The translations under genes and the position numbers were made by a program. The notes beneath the pieces are model-generated. The model worked only from the letters and a program-made list of their open reading frames with translations, searched no databases and was not told the origin of the DNA. From NCBI GenBank assembly GCA_902803685.1, contig CADCQR010000045.1, forward strand, positions 1 to 7,079: DNA of 7,079 nucleotides, given 5' to 3'. This document shows, piece after piece, positions 1 to 7,079 of this stretch (position 1 is its first letter; each line of letters opens with the position of its first letter). This DNA is from an uncultured Erysipelotrichaceae bacterium. Lineage in GTDB: Bacteria; Bacillota_I; Bacilli_A; RF39; UBA660.

Positions 1-30
1 ACTTTCCATTATAAAAATATAATAGAAAGT
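1..30. repeat. Imperfect 30-bp palindrome at the window edge
   Basis: Arm ACTTTC-C-ATTATA (1-13) faces TATAAT-A-GAAAGT (18-30) across an AAAA centre, giving 12 of 13 pairs with one C/A mismatch. It could be an operator, a bidirectional terminator of an upstream gene or chance in AT-rich DNA. No U-tract follows on the + strand, and what lies to the left is not visible. Confidence 0.45.
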
Positions 31-104
31 AACAATAATCTATAATTCTAACATATTTTTACATTAATTTTTTATGCGATTGCCTTACACAAAAAAAGTA
101 ATAT

Positions 105-133
105 TTGACATATTAAGTGGAATATGATAGAAT
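105..133 (+). promoter_or_regulatory. Sigma-A type promoter of the OLE-like RNA
   Basis: A perfect TTGACA (-35, 105-110) is followed by a 17-bp spacer and TAGAAT (-10, 128-133, one mismatch to consensus). Transcription should start near 140, exactly where the G+C-richer structured segment begins. This near-consensus match predicts strong constitutive expression and shows the RNA has a dedicated promoter here. No other gene-like feature is visible in bases 31-104. Confidence 0.8.
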
Positions 134-139
134 GTACTA

Positions 140-760
140 GTAATTGATGGCACATTATTCTAGTCAATTTCTTTATTTAGAGGACGAGATTAAACAATCG
201 TTAAAGGGCATATCTGTGAGGCCTTTGGTGTTTGCTTCATACGCCCAGTTTGGGGTGAATGCTGGAGATGTAGGACAATGGGCGCCCGTAATGGCATACG
301 GCAATCGACCCACTGTTCGTGGAGACCTATTTTCAATTAGCTTTTAATTACTTATATTATGAGCTATATTGAATAGGATTAAACCTGTATGTGGCGAAAG
401 TTATGTACAGCGTAGCCTGTCTTGAGTGATGATATTGGGATAAATGATCTTGCATATACAAGCGGCCACTTGTGTATTGTCATGCGTTTTGAAATTATTG
501 TTGCAAAAAAGAATTATAATTAAAGAGTTGGGGAGGAAATCTCCTAGAGTGCACTATTATAATGGGATTGCAGTGGACACTAAGTGGTAATCAAGTCGTA
601 TGTTCGGTGACGACATATTGATTCTTTTAAAGGGGAACCGCAATTTTGGTAACGAAATTGTAAGAATTAGGGAAATCCTACTTGACCTAAGGTTCAAAGT
701 TAACTGTTATAGTAGCCAAACAATTAAGTAGTATTCAAAAGTAGGTGACTACTTTTTTTT
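140..760 (+). ncRNA. ole: OLE RNA (large structured noncoding RNA)
   Basis: OLE RNA is a noncoding RNA of about 600 nt found in some Bacillota. It forms a membrane-associated ribonucleoprotein with OapA and has been linked to cold, alcohol and magnesium stress in Bacillus halodurans. Seen here: a promoter-to-terminator unit of about 620 nt, richer in G+C than its flanks, with no credible reading frame. Local helices include 203-207/222-226, 242-247/279-284, 287-290/297-300 and 310-313/319-322. A GAAA-capped arm spans 385-395/400-410, and a 9-bp arm pairs 454-462 with 469-477. Further helices are 531-535/541-545, 548-555/572-581 (2-nt bulge), 589-594/618-623, and a GUAA-capped 8-bp arm at 641-648/653-660. 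Established: OLE typically lies just upstream of oapA, as here. Inferred: the identity, from size, structure and the downstream gene. The ends are set by the promoter and terminator. The alternative is another large ncRNA class with the same partner. The main uncertainty is that no Rfam model could be run. Confidence 0.8.
737..760 (+). terminator. Intrinsic terminator at the 3' end of the OLE-like RNA
   Basis: AAAAGTAG (737-744) pairs perfectly with CTACTTTT (749-756) around a GTGA (GNRA) tetraloop, and T continues to 760. The stem is weak, with only three G-C pairs, so termination may be partial and let some transcripts read into the membrane-protein gene 53 bp downstream. A competing 7-bp pairing, AAGTAGT (726-732) with ACTACTT (748-754), uses the same 3' arm. 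Confidence 0.65.
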
Positions 761-774
761 GTGAAATTTATAAT
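745..774 (+). promoter_or_regulatory. Possible weak promoter for the OapA-like gene
   Basis: GTGACT (745-750, four matches to TTGACA) lies 18 bp before a perfect TATAAT (769-774); a second TATAAT starts at 774. The -35 box overlaps the terminator hairpin of the upstream RNA. The stretch is so AT-rich that -10-like boxes are expected by chance, so this is tentative. The alternative is expression of the gene purely by readthrough. Confidence 0.35.
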
Positions 775-813
775 ATAATAAAATAATATATATAAAGGTT
801 AGATTGGAGAAAA

Positions 814-1410
814 ATGTTTAAATTTAATAAAAATAGTGAATTAAAGAATTTAATTGAAATAACGAAGAAGAAAGAAAAGGTTAAGAAAGAAATAATTGAT
901 TGGTCTTGGATTGCAAAAATACTATTCATATCATTTATAATTTCCTTTTTTATGAGTTTTATATCTGAGATTACGATACCAAACTTATCTTTAGTTTTTG
1001 GTATTTTAGTAACCTTGTTATTTATTTTTGTTGGAATATTATTTGATTTAGTTGGTGTTGCTGTTACTAGTGCTGATGAGGCTGTTTTTCATTCTATGAA
1101 TTCTAGAAAAGTTAAAGGTGCAAAAATGGCTGTAAAATTTAAGAAAAACGCCGATAAAGTTTCAAGCTTTTGCTGCGATGTTATAGGAGATATTTGTGGT
1201 ATTGTTTCCGGAGCAGCTGGTATAACAATTGCTAATCAAATGTCGACCTTGACTGGAATATCATTACTGATTTGTTCGTTATTTGTATCAGCAATTATTG
1301 CATCCTTAACTATCGGAGGTAAAGCAATTGGAAAAAGTATTGCAATAAATAACAGTGACATCATATTGTATGAATTTTCGAAAGCAGTGACTAATTTTTA
1401 TAAAGTTTAG
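814..1410 (+). CDS. oapA: OLE-associated membrane protein OapA
   Basis: This 198-residue integral membrane protein is the likely protein partner that anchors OLE RNA to the cytoplasmic membrane. Seen: a Lys-rich amphipathic N-terminus (about 1-30), then hydrophobic segments at about 32-52, 58-84, 125-142 and 146-170. Segments two and three are joined by a strongly basic loop (about 97-115) that could contact RNA. D122 and D126 form a DxxxD motif in CCDVIGDICG, next to two cysteines; as I recall, a DxxxD motif is functionally important in the B. halodurans protein. Length is close to the roughly 200 residues expected of OapA. The start is supported by GGAG at 806-809. It lies 53 bp downstream of the end of the OLE-like RNA, the arrangement known for this pair. 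Family knowledge links OapA to magnesium homeostasis and stress tolerance. The assignment rests on motifs, topology and synteny, because no database search was possible. Confidence 0.8.
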   Translation: MFKFNKNSELKNLIEITKKKEKVKKEIIDWSWIAKILFISFIISFFMSFISEITIPNLSLVFGILVTLLFIFVGILFDLVGVAVTSADEAVFHSMNSRKVKGAKMAVKFKKNADKVSSFCCDVIGDICGIVSGAAGITIANQMSTLTGISLLICSLFVSAIIASLTIGGKAIGKSIAINNSDIILYEFSKAVTNFYKV

Positions 1411-1450
1411 CCATTTTCTATTTTTTTGTTGCATTGCTTTTTCTTTTTTT
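1381..1450 (+). terminator. Possible large-loop terminator after oapA
   Basis: AAAGCAGTG (1381-1389, inside the end of the gene) can pair with CATTGCTTT (1432-1440), nine pairs with one G-U, followed by a T-rich run at 1441-1450. The 42-nt loop makes this a weak prediction. The region 1411-1428 is otherwise only T-rich. Confidence 0.3.
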
Positions 1451-1457
1451 ATATAGT
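1429..1457 (+). promoter_or_regulatory. Promoter of the four-gene ABC-F cluster
   Basis: TTGCAT (1429-1434), a 17-bp spacer and TATAGT (1452-1457) make a plausible sigma-A promoter starting near 1464, about 20 nt before the ABC-F start codon. The short leader leaves no room for the upstream-ORF attenuators seen before some antibiotic-resistance ABC-F genes. Confidence 0.55.
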
Positions 1458-1484
1458 AAAATTAAGACGTTTTGAGGTGATAAT

Positions 1485-3068
1485 ATGATACAAGCAACTA
1501 ATGTAAGTTTGAAATTTGGAAAGAGAACATTATTCGAGGATGTAAATATTAAATTTACAAATGGTAATTGTTATGGCCTGATTGGTGCTAATGGTGCTGG
1601 AAAGTCAACTTTTTTAAAGCTATTATCTGGAGAAATTGAAACTACAACAGGTGAAATTTCAGTTACTAAAGGGGAAAGAATTTCATTTTTAAGGCAAGAC
1701 CATTATCAATATGAAGATAAACGTGCCATTGATGTAGTTATCATGGGAAATACTAAATTGTATGAAATAATGGAAGAAAAAGATAAGATGTATCAACAAA
1801 CGGAATTTAGTGACGAAGATGGGATGCGTCTTGCTAACTTGGAAGCAGAGTTTATGGAATTAGATGGTTGGAATGCTGAACCAGATGCTGCACAACTATT
1901 GAACAATTTAGGTGTTCCAGAAGAAAATCGCTATATGTTGATGAAAGAAATACCAGTAAAATTAAGAGTCAAGGTACTACTTGCACAAGCTTTGTTTGGC
2001 AATCCAGATATTCTTTTATTGGATGAGCCAACCAATTCTTTGGATATAGAAGCAATTAAGTGGTTAGAAGAATTCTTGATTAATTTTAATAATACCGTTA
2101 TTATTGTTTCTCATGATAGACATTTTTTAAATAACGTTTGTACTCATATTGCTGATATTGATTACGGAAAAATTAAATTGTATGTTGGTAACTATGACTT
2201 TTGGTATGAATCTTCAGAATTATTACAGAAACAAATGAAGGAGTCTAACAAGAAAAAAGAAGAAAAAATAAAAGAATTACAGTCTTTTATTGCAAGGTTT
2301 TCTGCTAATGCTTCTAAATCAAAACAGGCAACATCGCGTAAAAAGATGTTAGAAAAGATTCAGTTAGATGAAATAGTACCTTCTTCAAGAAAATATCCCT
2401 ATATTGATTTTAAAATTGAAAAGCCAGCAGGTAAGGAGATATTAAAAGTAGAAAATCTTACTAAGATTGTTGATGGAAAGAAGATATTAGATAAAATTTC
2501 TTTTACAGTATTAAAAGGAGATAAAATATGCTTTTTAGCTGAAGATGATATGGTAAAGACAACTCTTTTTAATATATTAGCTGGGAAAGATAAATATGAT
2601 AAAGGTACTGTAGAGTGGGGAAAAACTATGTGTTTTGGTTATTTACCACAAGATAACTCTAATTTCTTTAGTGTTAATAAAAACATTATGGAATGGATAG
2701 GACAGTACTACGATATAAAAGATGAAACTGTATTACGTGGCTTCTTGGGAAGAATGTTATTTTCTGGAGAAGATGTATTTAAAAATGTTGAGGTTTTGTC
2801 AGGCGGAGAAAAAGCTAGATGCATGCTATCTAAAATTATGCTAGAACAACCTAATTTTTTGATTTTAGATGAACCTACTAATCATTTAGATTTGGAAAGT
2901 ATAACTTCTCTTAATAAGGGATTATGTAATTTTCAAGGAGAATTATTGTTTACATCCAGGGATTATGAATTAAACAGTACAGTTGCTAATCGAGTGATAG
3001 AAATAAAAAGCGATGGAACTATAATAGACAGGTCTATTCCTTACGAGGAATATATTAGTATTAAATAA
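1485..3068 (+). CDS. ABC-F family ATPase, YbiT/YkpA-like, with one altered ATP site
   Basis: This is a soluble ABC-F protein with two fused nucleotide-binding domains and no membrane segments. Family members bind the ribosomal E site and act in translation or antibiotic protection. Length (527 residues) is close to YbiT/YkpA proteins. NBD1 has Walker A GANGAGKST (34-42), Q71, Walker B LLLDEPTN (ending 184) and switch H210. A basic coiled linker covers about 240-300. NBD2 has KTT at 358-360, signature LSGGEK (438-443) and Walker B LILDEPTNHLD (ending 469). Odd features: NBD1 lacks LSGGEK and carries IPVKLR at 156-161; NBD2 Walker A reads LAEDDMVKTT (351-360), with A352 and V357 at the usual Gly/small positions; the NBD2 switch His is R492 (SRD). 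These lesions all fall in one composite ATP site, while the partner site is intact. The frame shows no decay, so this looks like specialisation. The start has GAGGTGA at 1474-1480. As first gene of the cluster it may be a self-protection or regulatory ABC-F; that role is inferred. Confidence 0.93.
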   Translation: MIQATNVSLKFGKRTLFEDVNIKFTNGNCYGLIGANGAGKSTFLKLLSGEIETTTGEISVTKGERISFLRQDHYQYEDKRAIDVVIMGNTKLYEIMEEKDKMYQQTEFSDEDGMRLANLEAEFMELDGWNAEPDAAQLLNNLGVPEENRYMLMKEIPVKLRVKVLLAQALFGNPDILLLDEPTNSLDIEAIKWLEEFLINFNNTVIIVSHDRHFLNNVCTHIADIDYGKIKLYVGNYDFWYESSELLQKQMKESNKKKEEKIKELQSFIARFSANASKSKQATSRKKMLEKIQLDEIVPSSRKYPYIDFKIEKPAGKEILKVENLTKIVDGKKILDKISFTVLKGDKICFLAEDDMVKTTLFNILAGKDKYDKGTVEWGKTMCFGYLPQDNSNFFSVNKNIMEWIGQYYDIKDETVLRGFLGRMLFSGEDVFKNVEVLSGGEKARCMLSKIMLEQPNFLILDEPTNHLDLESITSLNKGLCNFQGELLFTSRDYELNSTVANRVIEIKSDGTIIDRSIPYEEYISIK

Positions 3069-3089
3069 AAATGAATGAGGATGATGAAT

Positions 3090-3614
3090 ATGAAAGATAA
3101 GAAAAGCATTGCCTTTTTAAGTATTTCACTATTAATTATTTTTCTTGTAGCTATTTTTTCCTTTTTATATGAACCTACTGATAATATCAAGAAAAATATC
3201 AGTAATGATGACAATGCAGTACTTGCTAGGGCTACTATTGAGAGCAATTCTGTTATAAAGGAAGAAAAAAAAGACTTTATTAAAATAACAGTTGATGAAT
3301 ACCTGGATATATATAATAGTAATAATCCAGCTATTGTATTAATTGGAAGAATGGGATGTGCATATTGCCAGATTGCTGAGCCTATAATTCAAAATATAAT
3401 GTATCGACATGGAATTGATATTTATTATATTTCAACAGATGACTTTACCGCTGAGACGGAAGAAAAATTTATGAATTCCAATGAACAATTAAATTCTTTT
3501 GCTACCCCATTGTTATTAATTGTACAAAGTGGTAAGATAAATGATAAGCAGGAAGGGTTAATTGACACTGATGGTTACGAAAAATTTTTAAAAAAGAATA
3601 ATTTTATTAATTAG
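3090..3614 (+). CDS. Membrane-anchored thioredoxin-fold protein (CxxC)
   Basis: This is a 174-residue protein with a cytoplasmic KDKK start, one membrane segment (about 7-26), a polar spacer (about 28-62) and an extracytoplasmic thioredoxin-like domain. The redox motif is CAYC (C90, C93) in the context LIGRMGCAYC. A probable cis-proline is P140 in FATPLL. The IGR-x-x-C-x-Y-C pattern resembles bacteriocin transport accessory proteins such as PedC, which act as thiol oxidoreductases on secreted disulfide peptides. The start at 3090 is preferred because GAGGA (3077-3081) sits 8 nt upstream. In-frame ATGs at 3075, 3081 and 3084 would place this SD inside the gene. It begins 21 nt after the ABC-F stop, so it is probably co-transcribed. 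The fold is well supported. The substrate is unknown: no bacteriocin precursor was seen, and a general disulfide or thiol-repair role at the cell surface is equally possible. Confidence 0.85.
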   Translation: MKDKKSIAFLSISLLIIFLVAIFSFLYEPTDNIKKNISNDDNAVLARATIESNSVIKEEKKDFIKITVDEYLDIYNSNNPAIVLIGRMGCAYCQIAEPIIQNIMYRHGIDIYYISTDDFTAETEEKFMNSNEQLNSFATPLLLIVQSGKINDKQEGLIDTDGYEKFLKKNNFIN

Positions 3615-3624
3615 TGGAGGAAAA

Positions 3625-4059
3625 ATGGGGATTGTTTATGAAGAAGCCTTGAAATTTAAGGCGAAAAATCCATTAACAATAGGGTGGAGAATTAAAAAGA
3701 ATGCAGCGATTGTAGAGTCTCATATGGCAGAAGATGAGATTCCTGTATATACATTTGTAGCTCAAAAAAATGATTTGTTTTTTGATATTTTTTCGACAGC
3801 AATTGTATGTTTAACCAATAAGAGAATACTGATAGGTAGAAAAAGGGTAATATATGGATATTATTTAGATTCTATATCTCCTGATATGTTTGATGATTTA
3901 AAAGTTGTAAGCGGACTAATATGGGGCAAGATTAGGATTGATACAGTGAAAAAGCATATGATTTTGTCGCATATTGATACTTCCGCATTATCTGAGATAG
4001 AAAGTAATGTAAGTTCATACATGTCAGAGATAAAAGAAATGTATAAAGCTACAAAATAA
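3625..4059 (+). CDS. Small bacterial PH-domain protein
   Basis: This 144-residue protein consists largely of one bacterial pleckstrin-homology domain (about residues 37-137). The hallmark is the strand AIVCLTNKRILIGRKR (59-74): a hydrophobic strand, TNKRIL, then a basic turn. After it come further strands (about 75-116) and a C-terminal amphipathic helix (about 119-142) that would cap the barrel. Residues 1-35 are basic and do not look like a signal peptide, so it is probably cytoplasmic. Bacterial PH domains occur in membrane-associated and stress-related proteins, but no ligand can be predicted here. The ATG is preceded by GGAGG (3616-3620) with a tight 4-nt gap and starts 10 nt after the previous stop, so translational coupling is likely. 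The domain call is fairly sure; the function is unknown. Confidence 0.75.
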   Translation: MGIVYEEALKFKAKNPLTIGWRIKKNAAIVESHMAEDEIPVYTFVAQKNDLFFDIFSTAIVCLTNKRILIGRKRVIYGYYLDSISPDMFDDLKVVSGLIWGKIRIDTVKKHMILSHIDTSALSEIESNVSSYMSEIKEMYKATK

Positions 4060-4088
4060 TATGTTGTGTAGTAAAAGGTGAATCTATT

Positions 4089-5333
4089 ATGAAGAAAATA
4101 TTTTCGATATTTATACCTTTATTGTTGTTGTTATTAGCAATACAACTTATTGTCACACAATTTACCTCAAGTTATCAAATTGAGTATTCTATTAAAAATA
4201 AAGATAACTTTTTCTATGTTGAAGAGTTCTTTGATAAAAATAATCACTATAATTATGACTTTTCTATTTCCGATTCTAAAGGCAATAAGTACATTATTTC
4301 TTTGATGGCAGATTTAAATAAGCAAAAAAGAGTTATCAAAGATATTAAATACTATTCTGATGAGAACATCATGTGTATTTTTCCAATTTTTAGACGTGAT
4401 AAGAAAGGTGAAATTAGTTGTTTATATAATAATGAGCAGGTTAGCGTTAGTTATCTGGAAAGTATTGGAATACCTTTGAACAAATTATTCAAGACTATGG
4501 TGGCATATGGCTATGGTGAAAAGTTCTCAAATGATAATTTACAGCCAAAGGAATTTGTTACTCAAAATAGATCCAAATTTTATATATATGAAGATAATAT
4601 ATATGATGGATATACATACGCAATTTGGAATTATAATGGTTTGTTACTTTTAAAAAAAGATAATATAAAAGAAAAAGCATATTATAACAGCGATATTTAT
4701 GACAATAGTAATTCTGTGTTAGTAGGGAAATACTATTACATTCTAAGCTTTGATGGTGGTGACTCTATCGATATAGACTATGTTAACTTAGAAGATTTTG
4801 GTAAGACAACAATTACTTTATCACAGCCGCTTAGTTCAGATTTATATGTAAATGGCGTTTATAAAAATAAATTATATGTAACTGATATAAAGTCAAAAAA
4901 GCAGTTTATATTTGATTCTTTTAATCAAAAAGCTAATATTTATTCGGATAAATTTTATATTCTAATAGATGATAAGCTTAAGTCAGTTAGTAAAGATTAT
5001 TTCTTTTCTAAAAGATATTATTTTAATGATATAGCCTCCGCCGAATTAAGTAAAAAATATGGAAATATAAAATTGCTGGAGTATGAAAATTATTTCTACT
5101 TTTATTATGATAATGTATTTTATAAAGTTCATAAGAATTATTTAAATCAACCAATAAGATTATTAAAATATAATGAAGTTAGAGATTGGAAGATAAGTGG
5201 TGGGGATCTTATTTTTGTAAACGGAGATACTATGTATTTATATTCAGATATATATGGTATAAAACCAATTGTTAAAAATTCTGAATTTAAATTTAATTAC
5301 AATAATATTTGTAATTTTTATAAAAAAATGTAA
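4089..5333 (+). CDS. Uncharacterised secreted or membrane-anchored beta-rich protein
   Basis: I do not recognise this 414-residue protein. Seen: a KK start followed by a Leu-rich hydrophobic segment (about 5-24) without a lipobox Cys, suggesting an N-terminal anchor or uncleaved signal; the rest lies outside the membrane. The exported part is very rich in Tyr, Asn, Asp and Lys and is built from short alternating hydrophobic strands and turns, such as DNIYDGYTYAIWNYNG, KYYYILSFDG and LIFVNGDTMYLYSD. That pattern suggests beta-propeller-like or beta-solenoid structure. There are no obvious catalytic motifs and only three Cys. AAGGTG (4075-4080) lies 8 nt before the ATG. It is last in the cluster, 29 nt after the PH gene and just before a terminator. 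Being exported next to an exported thiol oxidoreductase, it might be a substrate, sensor or surface-binding partner; that is speculation. Confidence 0.7.
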   Translation: MKKIFSIFIPLLLLLLAIQLIVTQFTSSYQIEYSIKNKDNFFYVEEFFDKNNHYNYDFSISDSKGNKYIISLMADLNKQKRVIKDIKYYSDENIMCIFPIFRRDKKGEISCLYNNEQVSVSYLESIGIPLNKLFKTMVAYGYGEKFSNDNLQPKEFVTQNRSKFYIYEDNIYDGYTYAIWNYNGLLLLKKDNIKEKAYYNSDIYDNSNSVLVGKYYYILSFDGGDSIDIDYVNLEDFGKTTITLSQPLSSDLYVNGVYKNKLYVTDIKSKKQFIFDSFNQKANIYSDKFYILIDDKLKSVSKDYFFSKRYYFNDIASAELSKKYGNIKLLEYENYFYFYYDNVFYKVHKNYLNQPIRLLKYNEVRDWKISGGDLIFVNGDTMYLYSDIYGIKPIVKNSEFKFNYNNICNFYKKM

Positions 5334-5354
5334 TTGCCTATTAATGTTTTTTGC

Positions 5355-5413
5355 AACTATCTGATGTTAGTTTTAGTGAATGTTGATTTGTAGCTACTCA
5401 GATAGTTATTTTT
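5355..5413 (+). terminator. Terminator of the ABC-F cluster
   Basis: AACTATCTGA (5355-5364) pairs perfectly over 10 bp with TCAGATAGTT (5398-5407), followed by ATTTTTT (5408-5414). The 33-nt loop is large for an intrinsic terminator, but its place 22 nt after the last gene and before the tRNA promoter fits the end of the transcription unit. Confidence 0.6.
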
Positions 5414-5435
5414 TGAATAAATTTAATAAAAGTTG

Positions 5436-5464
5436 TTGAAATATAAAAAATAGTTTGATATAAT
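5436..5464 (+). promoter_or_regulatory. Promoter of the tRNA unit
   Basis: TTGAAA (5436-5441), a 17-bp spacer and perfect TATAAT (5459-5464) predict a start near 5471, about 40 nt before the mature tRNA-Cys. The leader would be removed by RNase P. Confidence 0.7.
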
Positions 5465-5509
5465 TTTTCTTGTCTTGAGGTTTGCTGTTGATTAGACCAT
5501 AAGATATAT

Positions 5510-5583
5510 GGGGCTTTAGCCAAGTGGTAAGGCGTGGGTCTGCAACACCCTGATCATCGGTTCAAATCCGTTAGGCCCCTCCA
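5510..5583 (+). tRNA. tRNA-Cys (anticodon GCA)
   Basis: A 74-nt cloverleaf including encoded CCA (5581-5583). The acceptor stem 5510-5516/5573-5579 is complete with one G-U, and the D stem is 5519-5521/5531-5533. The anticodon GCA is at 5542-5544 in loop 5540-5546, the T loop TTCAAAT at 5561-5567, and the discriminator is U5580, as expected for tRNA-Cys. Two U-U mismatches stand out: 5535/5551 at the base of the anticodon stem and 5557/5571 in the T stem. It is still probably functional. Confidence 0.92.
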
Positions 5584-5588
5584 TACTT

Positions 5589-5663
5589 GTGAATGTGGTT
5601 CAATGGTTAGAATATGGCCTTGCCAAGGCTATGATGGGGGTTCGATTCCCCTCATTCACTCCA
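5589..5663 (+). tRNA. tRNA-Gly (anticodon GCC)
   Basis: A 75-nt cloverleaf with encoded CCA (5661-5663). Acceptor stem 5589-5595/5653-5659 is perfectly complementary. D stem is 5598-5601/5610-5613, anticodon stem 5615-5619/5627-5631, anticodon GCC at 5622-5624, T stem 5636-5640/5648-5652 and discriminator U5660. Only 5 nt separate it from tRNA-Cys, so both are processed from one precursor. Confidence 0.95.
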
Positions 5664-5675
5664 TTGAGGAATCTG

Positions 5676-5724
5676 CTCGGAACAATACCGAGTTTGATAT
5701 ATAAATCTATCGTAAGATAGATTT
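5676..5724 (+). other. Two consecutive hairpins in the tRNA 3' trailer
   Basis: CTCGG (5676-5680) pairs with CCGAG (5688-5692) around a 7-nt loop. AAATCTATC (5703-5711) pairs perfectly with GATAGATTT (5716-5724) around a GTAA (GNRA) tetraloop. Neither is followed by a U-tract, so they are not terminators. They could be processing or stability elements, or part of a short structured RNA running into the terminator at 5727. Confidence 0.55.
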
Positions 5725-5726
5725 CA

Positions 5727-5771
5727 GACTGTTGACAAAGTAAACTTATTGTTAATAGTCTTTTTATTTTT
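5727..5771 (+). terminator. Intrinsic terminator of the tRNA unit
   Basis: GACTGTTGACAA (5727-5738) pairs with TTGTTAATAGTC (5749-5760), 12 continuous pairs with two G-U and a 10-nt loop, followed by the T-rich run 5761-5771. This is a convincing Rho-independent terminator. Confidence 0.85.
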
Positions 5772-5783
5772 ATTCAATTATTA

Positions 5784-5796
5784 TATAATTATCTTG
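5784..5796 (+). repeat. 13-bp direct repeat, copy 1, near the IS left end
   Basis: TATAATTATCTTG here is repeated exactly at 5860-5872, 76 bp downstream. Each copy begins with a -10-like TATAAT, and the second serves as the -10 of the transposase promoter. Copy 1 is followed by GTAAGAAC (5796-5803), which has its inverted partner GTTCTTAC at 5833-5840. Confidence 0.7.
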
Positions 5797-5805
5797 TAAG
5801 AACTG

Positions 5806-5882
5806 CTTTTATTCCCAAAATTTAAGCTTACTGTTCTTACTTTTTTATTGTTTAAATGCTATAATTATCTTGGGAATAAAAG
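5806..5882. repeat. 13-bp inverted repeat flanking the transposase promoter
   Basis: CTTTTATTCCCAA (5806-5818) is the exact reverse complement of TTGGGAATAAAAG (5870-5882). The arms enclose the transposase promoter, and the right arm ends 10 bp before the start codon. Such subterminal repeats may be transposase-binding sites. In a readthrough transcript the hairpin could also hide the start region, a known way for insertion sequences to limit transposase production from outside promoters. The terminal IS repeat itself cannot be fixed because the other end is outside the window. Confidence 0.65.
5837..5865 (+). promoter_or_regulatory. Promoter of the transposase gene
   Basis: TTACTT (5837-5842, four matches to TTGACA), a 17-bp spacer and perfect TATAAT (5860-5865) predict a start near 5872. 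The leader is only about 20 nt, so a transcript from here would lack the left arm of the inverted repeat. Confidence 0.55.
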
Positions 5883-5892
5883 AAAGTAAGTG

Positions 5893-7079
5893 ATGATTAT
5901 GGCTATGACTAAAAGATTAGAAAAACAATTCTCAAATGAATTTATAAATATTGAAGAAATGATTCCTGAAAATCATTTTCTTAGAGTTATTGATAAACAT
6001 TTTGACTGGAACTTTGTATATGATGAAGTTGAAAAACTATATTCTAAAATTGGTCGTAAAAGTATTGACCCTGTAGTTTTGATAAAGATTCATATATTAA
6101 AGTTCCTTTTTAATGAAGATAGTCTAAGAAAGACTTATGAAAATCTTAAATATAATATTTTATATAGATGGTTTATTGGTTATGAGTTAGGTCAAGATGT
6201 ACCTGATCATTCTACTTATTCGCAAAACTATAGAAGAAAGTTTTGTAAATTAGAAAAAGATTTACTTCAAACTGTTTTTGATAAAGTGACGAATCTTTTA
6301 ATTGAATGGAATTGTTTAGATATGACAGCTGTATATATTGATTCTACTCATACAAAGGCCTATGCAAATAAAAAGAAAAATCATAAGGAAGTCGTTAAAA
6401 TAGAAGTTAAGAAATATCAAAAAGAATTAGATTTAGAAATTGCCTTAAAAGGATTACATGATAAAGATTTAAGTGAGAAAGAATATTTTGAAGAAGTTGA
6501 AAAGATAATTAAATGTAATGAAGAAATAAATACCGAAGAAGTAATTGGAGAGAAAGAAATAATTGTAAGTGATGTAGATAAAGATGCAGGAATGTTATAT
6601 AAAAGTGATAAGGAGAAAATGTTTGGATATAATACAAGTGTAATATGTGATAATAATAACTATATACTAACTGTAGATACAAATGGAAGTAACATCCATG
6701 ACTCAGTTTCTTTTTATGATTCATTTGATAATTTAATAAATCACTACGATATTTCTAAAATAAATTATTTTGTTGGAGATGCTGCTTATTTAACTGCTCA
6801 TATTAGTAAAACAATTATAGATCTAGATATGATTCCTTCTATGCCATATTCAAGGAAAGGATATAAAGAAGGAAAATTTAAAAAATATGAATATGTTTAT
6901 GATGAATATAATGATATTTATATATGTCCAAATGAAAAAGATTTAATCCCTACTGGTCGAATAGATAAAAATGGGTATATTATTTATAAATCAGATTCTA
7001 ATGATTGTATAAATTGTCCGTTTAAAGAAAAATGCACTAAATCAAAATGCAAACAAATACTAAGACATGTATGGGAAGG
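5893..7079 (+). CDS. IS1182-family DDE transposase, 3' end outside the window
   Basis: This catalyses excision and insertion of the IS. At least 395 codons are open to the window edge, with no internal stop. The N-terminal part (about 1-125) is the conserved IS1182/IS5-like domain, with FINIEEMIPENHFLRVID and DHSTYSQNYRR. The catalytic core has the first Asp, D150, in IDSTHTKAYANKK. A Lys/Glu-rich insert follows, then DVDKDAGML, a GYNTSVICD strand and NGSNIHDS, and the second Asp, D296, in FVGDAAY. A Cys cluster typical of the family (C345, C372, C375, C381, C386) follows. The third acidic residue should be in the missing C-terminus. An in-frame TAA at 5887 limits the start to GTG 5890, ATG 5893 or ATG 5899. 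No clear SD decides between them, so the first ATG is taken. The gene is intact as far as seen; whether the element is active cannot be judged. Confidence 0.92.
   Translation, partial: MIMAMTKRLEKQFSNEFINIEEMIPENHFLRVIDKHFDWNFVYDEVEKLYSKIGRKSIDPVVLIKIHILKFLFNEDSLRKTYENLKYNILYRWFIGYELGQDVPDHSTYSQNYRRKFCKLEKDLLQTVFDKVTNLLIEWNCLDMTAVYIDSTHTKAYANKKKNHKEVVKIEVKKYQKELDLEIALKGLHDKDLSEKEYFEEVEKIIKCNEEINTEEVIGEKEIIVSDVDKDAGMLYKSDKEKMFGYNTSVICDNNNYILTVDTNGSNIHDSVSFYDSFDNLINHYDISKINYFVGDAAYLTAHISKTIIDLDMIPSMPYSRKGYKEGKFKKYEYVYDEYNDIYICPNEKDLIPTGRIDKNGYIIYKSDSNDCINCPFKEKCTKSKCKQILRHVWE

Follow-up and report, generated by a model that had tools for sequence, protein, structure and literature searches.

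A full-length OLE RNA gene next to oapA that is probably transcribed as a promoter-to-terminator unit of its own

To our knowledge, OLE RNAs are among the largest structured bacterial RNAs for which no biochemical task is known. We describe here an OLE RNA gene (ole) and the adjoining oapA gene, which encodes the OLE-associated membrane protein OapA, on a stretch of 7,079 nt that corresponds to positions 1-7,079 of the forward strand of contig CADCQR010000045.1 (assembly GCA_902803685.1) and is referred to in its entirety as the window. In Halalkalibacterium halodurans, OLE forms a ribonucleoprotein (RNP) at the membrane (PMC9723947, PMC12054373, PMC12265935), and this RNP needs the proteins OapB and OapC (PMC9723947, PMC12265935, PMC10898510). 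The ole gene of this organism has a promoter of its own (PMC9723947) and also lies within a polycistronic cluster with isoprenoid, DNA-repair and other genes (PMC9723947, PMC12265935, PMC10898510). The occurrence of OLE in RF39-type bacteria, its link to OapA and the lack of OapB and OapC in the RF39 clade are likewise in print (PMC11332333), and an OLE variant 2, common in RF39, is reported to be without P7 and P8 (Fernando and Breaker 2024, PMC11332333).

The region of the window that harbors ole and oapA is made up as follows.

105-133, forward strand: ole promoter (TTGACA at 105-110, 17-nt spacer, TG at 125-126, TAGAAT at 128-133)
131-735, forward strand: OLE RNA (bounds of Rfam family RF01071)
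737-760, forward strand: intrinsic terminator (8-bp stem, GTGA loop, T-tract)
745-774, forward strand: candidate oapA promoter, overlapping the terminator (GTGACT, 18-nt spacer, TATAAT; 10 of 12 consensus matches, no TG)
814-1410, forward strand: oapA, encoding the OLE-associated membrane protein of 198 aa with a CNNM/CorC transmembrane fold

We consider it probable, at roughly 0.78, that ole is a promoter-to-terminator unit of its own, that oapA makes up a second unit, and that the RNA acts in trans as an OLE RNP. A strong promoter of the housekeeping type would give rise to an RNA of around 620 nt, running from about 140 to its own terminator at about 760; the signals are observed, and the transcript is predicted from them. 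As the relatives suggest, oapA would be served by a weaker promoter tucked against the terminator together with partial read-through. By analogy with H. halodurans, the RNA, with its conserved OLE fold, would bind OapA and form a membrane RNP, and the splitting into two units would allow far more RNA than protein to be made. An earlier reading, made from the letters of the window alone (the sequence-only reading), had proposed a promoter-to-terminator unit beside oapA and apart from the usual long operon; the signals were found as it described them, and the unit lies outside the dxs/tlyA/argR cluster.

The RNA is a bona fide, full-length OLE RNA gene. A scan of the whole window against Rfam (E values up to 1) gave three matches, which are the OLE RNA and two tRNAs. 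The OLE match (RF01071, 131-735, forward strand) scored 388.6 bits, with an E value of 1.3e-111 and against a gathering score of 50 bits, and it covers positions 1-616 of the 616 in the model, so that the assignment to the OLE class holds from end to end. The segment 140-735 folds better than shuffled versions (z -2.86; 0 of 100 shuffles as good), and 131-280 folded alone gives no signal above shuffles (z 0.09). The OLE secondary structure is kept by compensatory change, as seen in an alignment of the window with 73 of the 80 related loci introduced below (7 of the 80 were dropped, being cut off or without a match), to which the Rfam structure was transferred via the window sequence. Over 152 pairs, and with near-copy pairs of loci still inside the alignment, 86.6% of cells are paired compared with 75.0% in shuffles, 111 of the pairs are altered at both positions (a number reached in 0 of 500 shuffles), and the covariation score is 0.381 compared with 0.167 in shuffles and 0.076-0.103 with slid partners. 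The window RNA itself breaks 11 of these 152 pairs. Hairpins at 326-377 and 385-410 are both present in it and, from their order after J6/7, probably correspond to P7 and P8. Near the OapC k-turn (264-275 and 318-327 of the window), J4a/5 reads GAUGUA where the Rfam consensus has gUUAA; in relatives J4a/5 varies around GAUGA, and the GGAGA strand of J6/7 is mostly kept. A 67-aa frame at 144-347, which clusters with frames of the loci (18 in all, that of the window included), was considered as a gene and rejected, as it sits within OLE and is taken to be a by-product of RNA conservation.

Two samples of related loci were used for comparison. The first consists of the 80 top-ranking OapA loci out of 488 confirmed in public genomes, which are simply called loci below, with the window added where stated. 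The second holds 70 of the 79 places at which the covariance model finds OLE in the order of one relative, chosen independently of OapA and called OLE-selected loci; 10 of these 70 are also in the first sample. For OapA, 120 of 7569 proteins were considered, and searches covering more than 40 genomes were run with stricter filters. The relatives have genomes of 0.6-2.0 Mb and are of gut origin, and the order surveyed is probably RF39 of the GTDB, a group of uncultured small-genome gut Bacilli. OLE occurs in at least 79 of the 117 genomes of this order and in at least 10 of the 295 genomes of a phylum sample, both of which are lower bounds since only part of the candidates was scored in many genomes. 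By score, 51 of the hits in the order exceed 330 bits and 28 fall short of 290 bits. These 28 of the 79 (L141-L168) are short, at about 380-541 nt with two of only about 380 nt, and are found alongside full-length ones.

The near-consensus promoter of the sequence-only reading is present at 105-133, where it makes 11 of 12 consensus matches, carries the TG of an extended -10 element and ranks among the top two sites of the window. Statistics on the single sequence were tried and rejected as proof of it: promoter-like sites in the window are no commoner than in shuffles (57 compared with a mean of 49.2, sd 6.6), and evidence beyond chance is therefore comparative. Of 74 loci, counting the window and with near-copy pairs kept, 60 have a comparable promoter no farther than 90 nt upstream of OLE, as defined by no more than one mismatch per hexamer, a 16-18-nt spacer and the TG, and both hexamers are perfect in 47 of the 74. 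All plus-strand sites of this kind in 1.01 Mb of the loci number 154, including the sites of those 60 loci themselves. Among the OLE-selected loci with enough sequence, 53 of 67 have the promoter, compared with 33 of 700 random stretches. Transcription of ole would start near position 140. The possession of a promoter as such, which had been put forward as a distinguishing feature, does not set this ole apart, since one has already been reported in H. halodurans (PMC9723947).

The intrinsic terminator claimed for the end of the RNA is also there. Its stem consists of 8 perfect pairs (AAAAGTAG/CTACTTTT) that enclose the GTGA loop at 737-756, followed by T to 760, and folding of bases 734-764 yields -7.4 kcal/mol (z -2.44), which 5 of 200 shuffles matched or bettered. 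A consensus terminator scan of the window gave nothing at 737-760, because the scanner demands three G-C pairs and the stem has two. Among the relatives, the terminator counts depend on the rule applied. The first rules gave 47 of 80 loci, or 48 of 90 including duplicates. The rule was loosened once, after eight loci with A+T hairpins had been noticed, to allow stems of at least 7 pairs with one G-C, and then gave 55 of 87 loci, or 53 of 84 distinct loci after the removal of near-copies (L086, which repeats L052; the copies in L024/L023 and L049/L046, which are the same over the stretch compared; and L082, L083 and L088). The random control for the first sample is 36 of 870. A terminator follows OLE in 26 of the 70 OLE-selected loci, with 41 of 700 in the random control. 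At two junctions the scoring is delicate: L032 is counted as having no terminator despite a visible hairpin, and the hairpin-plus-T junction of L016 (56 nt) is no more stable than shuffled versions of it (z 0.02).

The terminator goes together with the distance between the last helix of OLE and oapA. Where a terminator is found, this distance is at least 50 nt in 53 of 53 loci and reaches 3220 nt; where none is found, it is at most 54 nt in 30 of 31. The OLE-selected loci with a terminator show distances from OLE to oapA of 46-2437 nt (25 loci with oapA), and 40 of the 44 without one show distances of at most 51 nt, the four that break the rule having 93, 97, 265 and 425 nt. The link is partly mechanical, as a terminator needs room. 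In six loci (L007, L015, L018, L042, L061 and L085) ole and oapA are 0.47-3.2 kb apart; the inserts of L007, L015 and L042 share a similar terminal MFKD-D motif, and that of L061 holds a 516-aa open reading frame (ORF) with a Pfam HopA1 domain. Between the terminator and oapA, an extended -10 element is present in 28 of 44 terminator-type loci (near-copy pairs still counted; the window is not among the 28), against a rate of 6.0% in dinucleotide shuffles; of 34 loci in which no terminator was scored, 5 have the element, against a rate of 1.7%. In many relatives the T-tract leads straight into TGnTATAAT. The suggestion that ole and its neighbor are regulated independently gains support from these relatives beyond what the sequence alone could give, although the window's own copy of the element is without the TG.

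On a tree of OapA, which is a quick tree with 36 of its 82 inner branches open, the terminator state requires 10 changes across the 84 distinct loci; other labellings give 11 changes (loosened rule, near-copies included) or 12 (first labels, with no fewer than 5 forced by the starred branches). In one clade (L017, L033, L035, L039 and L048; support 98) neither an ole promoter nor a terminator was found. Here OLE is wedged between a gene of a glucosaminidase family and oapA, its mapped start lying 14-15 nt after the former in four of the five, and by eye a small hairpin stands just upstream in four of the five.

The oapA gene starts 53 nt past the terminator, behind a GGAG ribosome-binding site. 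The OapA-like gene expected directly downstream of the RNA is thus at 814-1410, and its product is 38% identical over 177 aa to the protein that follows OLE in the canonical cluster of Pusillibacter (E 2e-43, in a single comparison); a profile comparison of the two gives 99.9%. A search of PDB sequences with the OapA alignment had a best E value of 0.64. The protein is a membrane protein related to MpfA/CNNM. RNA and protein keep company throughout: OLE lies near oapA in 79 of 80 loci as judged by nhmmer, the two being on separate contigs of one genome in L027, and oapA is downstream of OLE on the same strand in 69 of the 70 OLE-selected loci. Each of the 50 genomes out of the 80 that were searched whole carries one OLE. 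Conversely, 38 OLE-negative genomes of the order (20 listed outright, 18 deduced from the numbering) gave no strong match to OapA and one partial match (E 3.6e-4). The family of OapC, PF01248 (L7Ae/YbxF), was found in 0 of 30 related genomes and in 7 of 14 control genomes, Bacillus subtilis included. The OLE RNP of this group is therefore likely to be simpler than that of H. halodurans, in agreement with PMC11332333. Relatives with full-length OLE and OapA, in which the OapC family was not found, point to a smaller OLE RNP that would be amenable to rebuilding in vitro.

Several observations weigh against separate ole and oapA units and an RNA acting in trans. Since the terminator stem holds only two G-C pairs, read-through is likely. 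No terminator was found in 31 of the 84 distinct loci and in 44 of the 70 OLE-selected ones, so that separate units are no rule of the group. The candidate oapA promoter of the window has no TG and a poor -35 element. Within the RNA, pairing across the alignment is poor for the inner part of the hairpin at 326-377 (40.6% of cells) and weak for the helix at 451-482 (64.5%). The Foldseek match between OapA and MtCorB has a probability of 1.00 with an E value of 5.3e-3. Finally, in one genome (G394, locus L133) OLE, promoter and terminator are present and OapA was not detected, which would mean that the assembly has a gap or that this OLE lacks its partner.

Beyond oapA, the window continues as follows.

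1485-3068, forward strand: ABC-F ATPase, part of the recurrent block
3075-3614, forward strand: thioredoxin-like protein, part of the recurrent block
3625-4059, forward strand: bacterial PH-domain protein (bPH_3), part of the recurrent block
4089-5333, forward strand: 414-aa protein of unassigned function, part of the recurrent block
5510-5583, forward strand: tRNA-Cys (gca), part of the recurrent block
5589-5663, forward strand: tRNA-Gly (gcc), part of the recurrent block
5890-7079: IS1182-type transposase, which runs off the contig end

The ABC-F cluster and tRNAs noted downstream of oapA are therefore where they were said to be. The unusual setting that was read into them did not survive the comparison of context, which was run on the 80 loci: the setting is ordinary for the lineage because the same block, in the order OLE, oapA, kinase-like gene (in some), ABC-F, thioredoxin, bPH, tRNA-Cys and tRNA-Gly, recurs among many relatives. 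Counted over the six ORFs after oapA in the 79 loci with an oapA frame, with near-copy pairs included and many contigs ending early, an ABC ATPase belonging to the ABC-F cluster is present in 43 (at least 450 aa long in 41), and of the other families the kinase-like one is present in 34, the PH-domain one in 28, the 414-aa one in 27 and the thioredoxin-like one in 25. In 20 of 80 loci the same strand carries tRNA-Cys and then tRNA-Gly farther downstream; another 5 have only the tRNA-Cys there. Upstream of OLE, a family with a glucosaminidase domain (PF01832) and a family of about 370 aa recur. The gene next after oapA has a protein-kinase fold in 33 of 77 loci. Across the 14 genomes that were searched, the closest members of this kinase-like family lie at the ole locus, although the best matches lean towards ole loci because the alignment used was built from them; a phmmer search with one kinase-like protein gave no match up to an E value of 1.

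OLE could alternatively be an attenuating 5' leader that acts in cis, with 737-760 as a regulated terminator and with OLE folding or OapA binding setting the read-through into oapA. Only 53 nt separate the terminator from the oapA start, a strong consensus promoter for oapA is missing from the window, and in the 31 of 84 and 44 of 70 loci where no terminator was found OLE mostly reaches the oapA ribosome-binding site within about 50 nt, all of which would suit a leader. However, in six loci the gap from terminator to oapA extends up to 3.2 kb, an extended -10 element follows the terminator in 28 of 44, pairing between the hairpin and OLE is not part of the Rfam structure, and OLE works as an RNP in H. 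halodurans (PMC12265935), which together make the leader unlikely. We regard as decidedly improbable the further idea that OLE is cut from a longer transcript of upstream genes and that its promoter- and terminator-like sequences are incidental. The promoterless clade of five (support 98), with its OLE start 14-15 nt after a glucosaminidase-family gene in four of them, and the transcription of the H. halodurans cluster as one polycistronic RNA (PMC12265935) speak for such processing; the near-perfect promoter, which has counterparts in 60 of 74 loci and in 53 of the 67 OLE-selected ones, speaks against it.

That the RNA-protein pair came in by horizontal transfer, as the sequence-only reading had entertained, and now has foreign genes around it appears highly improbable. 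In its favor, the distribution in the phylum sample is patchy, at no fewer than 10 of 295 genomes, the window ends in an IS1182-type transposase (5890-7079), the trees of OapA and RpoB have only 4 of 21 splits in common, and a Pusillibacter replicon of 504 kb that is labelled a plasmid carries a canonical ole cluster. Against this, at least 79 of the 117 genomes of the order carry OLE, the block recurs across the relatives, and across 24 relatives the distances of OapA are in agreement with those of RpoB (Spearman 0.65, reached in 0 of 2000 permutations), by which transfer is left unsupported among these relatives; 6 of 30 genomes were dropped from this test (4 without a match, 2 fragmentary). 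GC content at third codon positions (GC3) is similar across oapA and the four genes that follow it, at 0.21-0.25, with a lower value of 0.14 for the transposase. A phage collection gave no match, and the sole match in a plasmid collection was that different, canonical cluster. Transfer within the group is possible. The RpoB of one genome (G023) is placed oddly, perhaps owing to contamination of the assembly, and a search for OapA in viral contigs gave 15 pattern matches, none of which was confirmed.

The reading of ole and oapA as two units, with the RNA acting in trans, can be extended to a switchable OLE unit in which lineages alternate between types. These would be an ole with promoter and terminator, often with the oapA promoter fused to the terminator; an OLE that is the direct leader of oapA; and, in one clade, an OLE without its own promoter that would be read from the upstream gene. 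This extension, which includes action in trans, a selected RNA:OapA ratio and the kinase-fold gene as a candidate new partner in the OLE RNP, the last because its closest members lie at the ole locus in 14 genomes, is tentative, and we place it somewhat short of even odds. If it holds, OLE works in trans, and selection bears on the RNA:OapA ratio as such. The apparent separation of RNA and protein into units that in some lineages are kilobases apart would provide natural evidence for action in trans rather than as a leader of oapA. The modularity of OLE units, with a terminated OLE and often a restart at oapA on the one hand and OLE as the leader of oapA on the other, seems undescribed: in the accessible portions of the OLE literature we met no description of an ole terminator, of an oapA promoter behind it or of switching between unit types, which is weak evidence of absence.

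Set beside the known systems, the window resembles the OLE of H. halodurans (the bTOR RNP) in its RF01071 family, its length of around 600 nt, its oapA neighbor and its own promoter (PMC9723947), whereas it differs in having its own terminator and other neighbors, and all 30 relatives tested are without a PF01248 match. The cluster of Pusillibacter faecalis pMM59_01 (L198, NZ_AP023421.1, 195907-205968) is alike in that an OLE RNA (399.8 bits) is followed by a CNNM-domain protein. It differs in that oapA is followed by dxs, tlyA, NAD kinase and argR, and by eye there is no hairpin-plus-T terminator between OLE and oapA. Its 504-kb replicon is labelled a conjugative plasmid and may be a secondary chromosome. 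With the variant 2 OLE of RF39 and the variant 1 OLE of TANB77 (PMC11332333), the window shares a reduced-genome setting and the retention of OapA, it probably belongs to the same group, and the OapC family was not found in the relatives tested. In contrast to variant 2, the window RNA retains two hairpins (326-377 and 385-410) at the place of P7 and P8, and because these are taken to be P7 and P8, it is not a variant 2 RNA.
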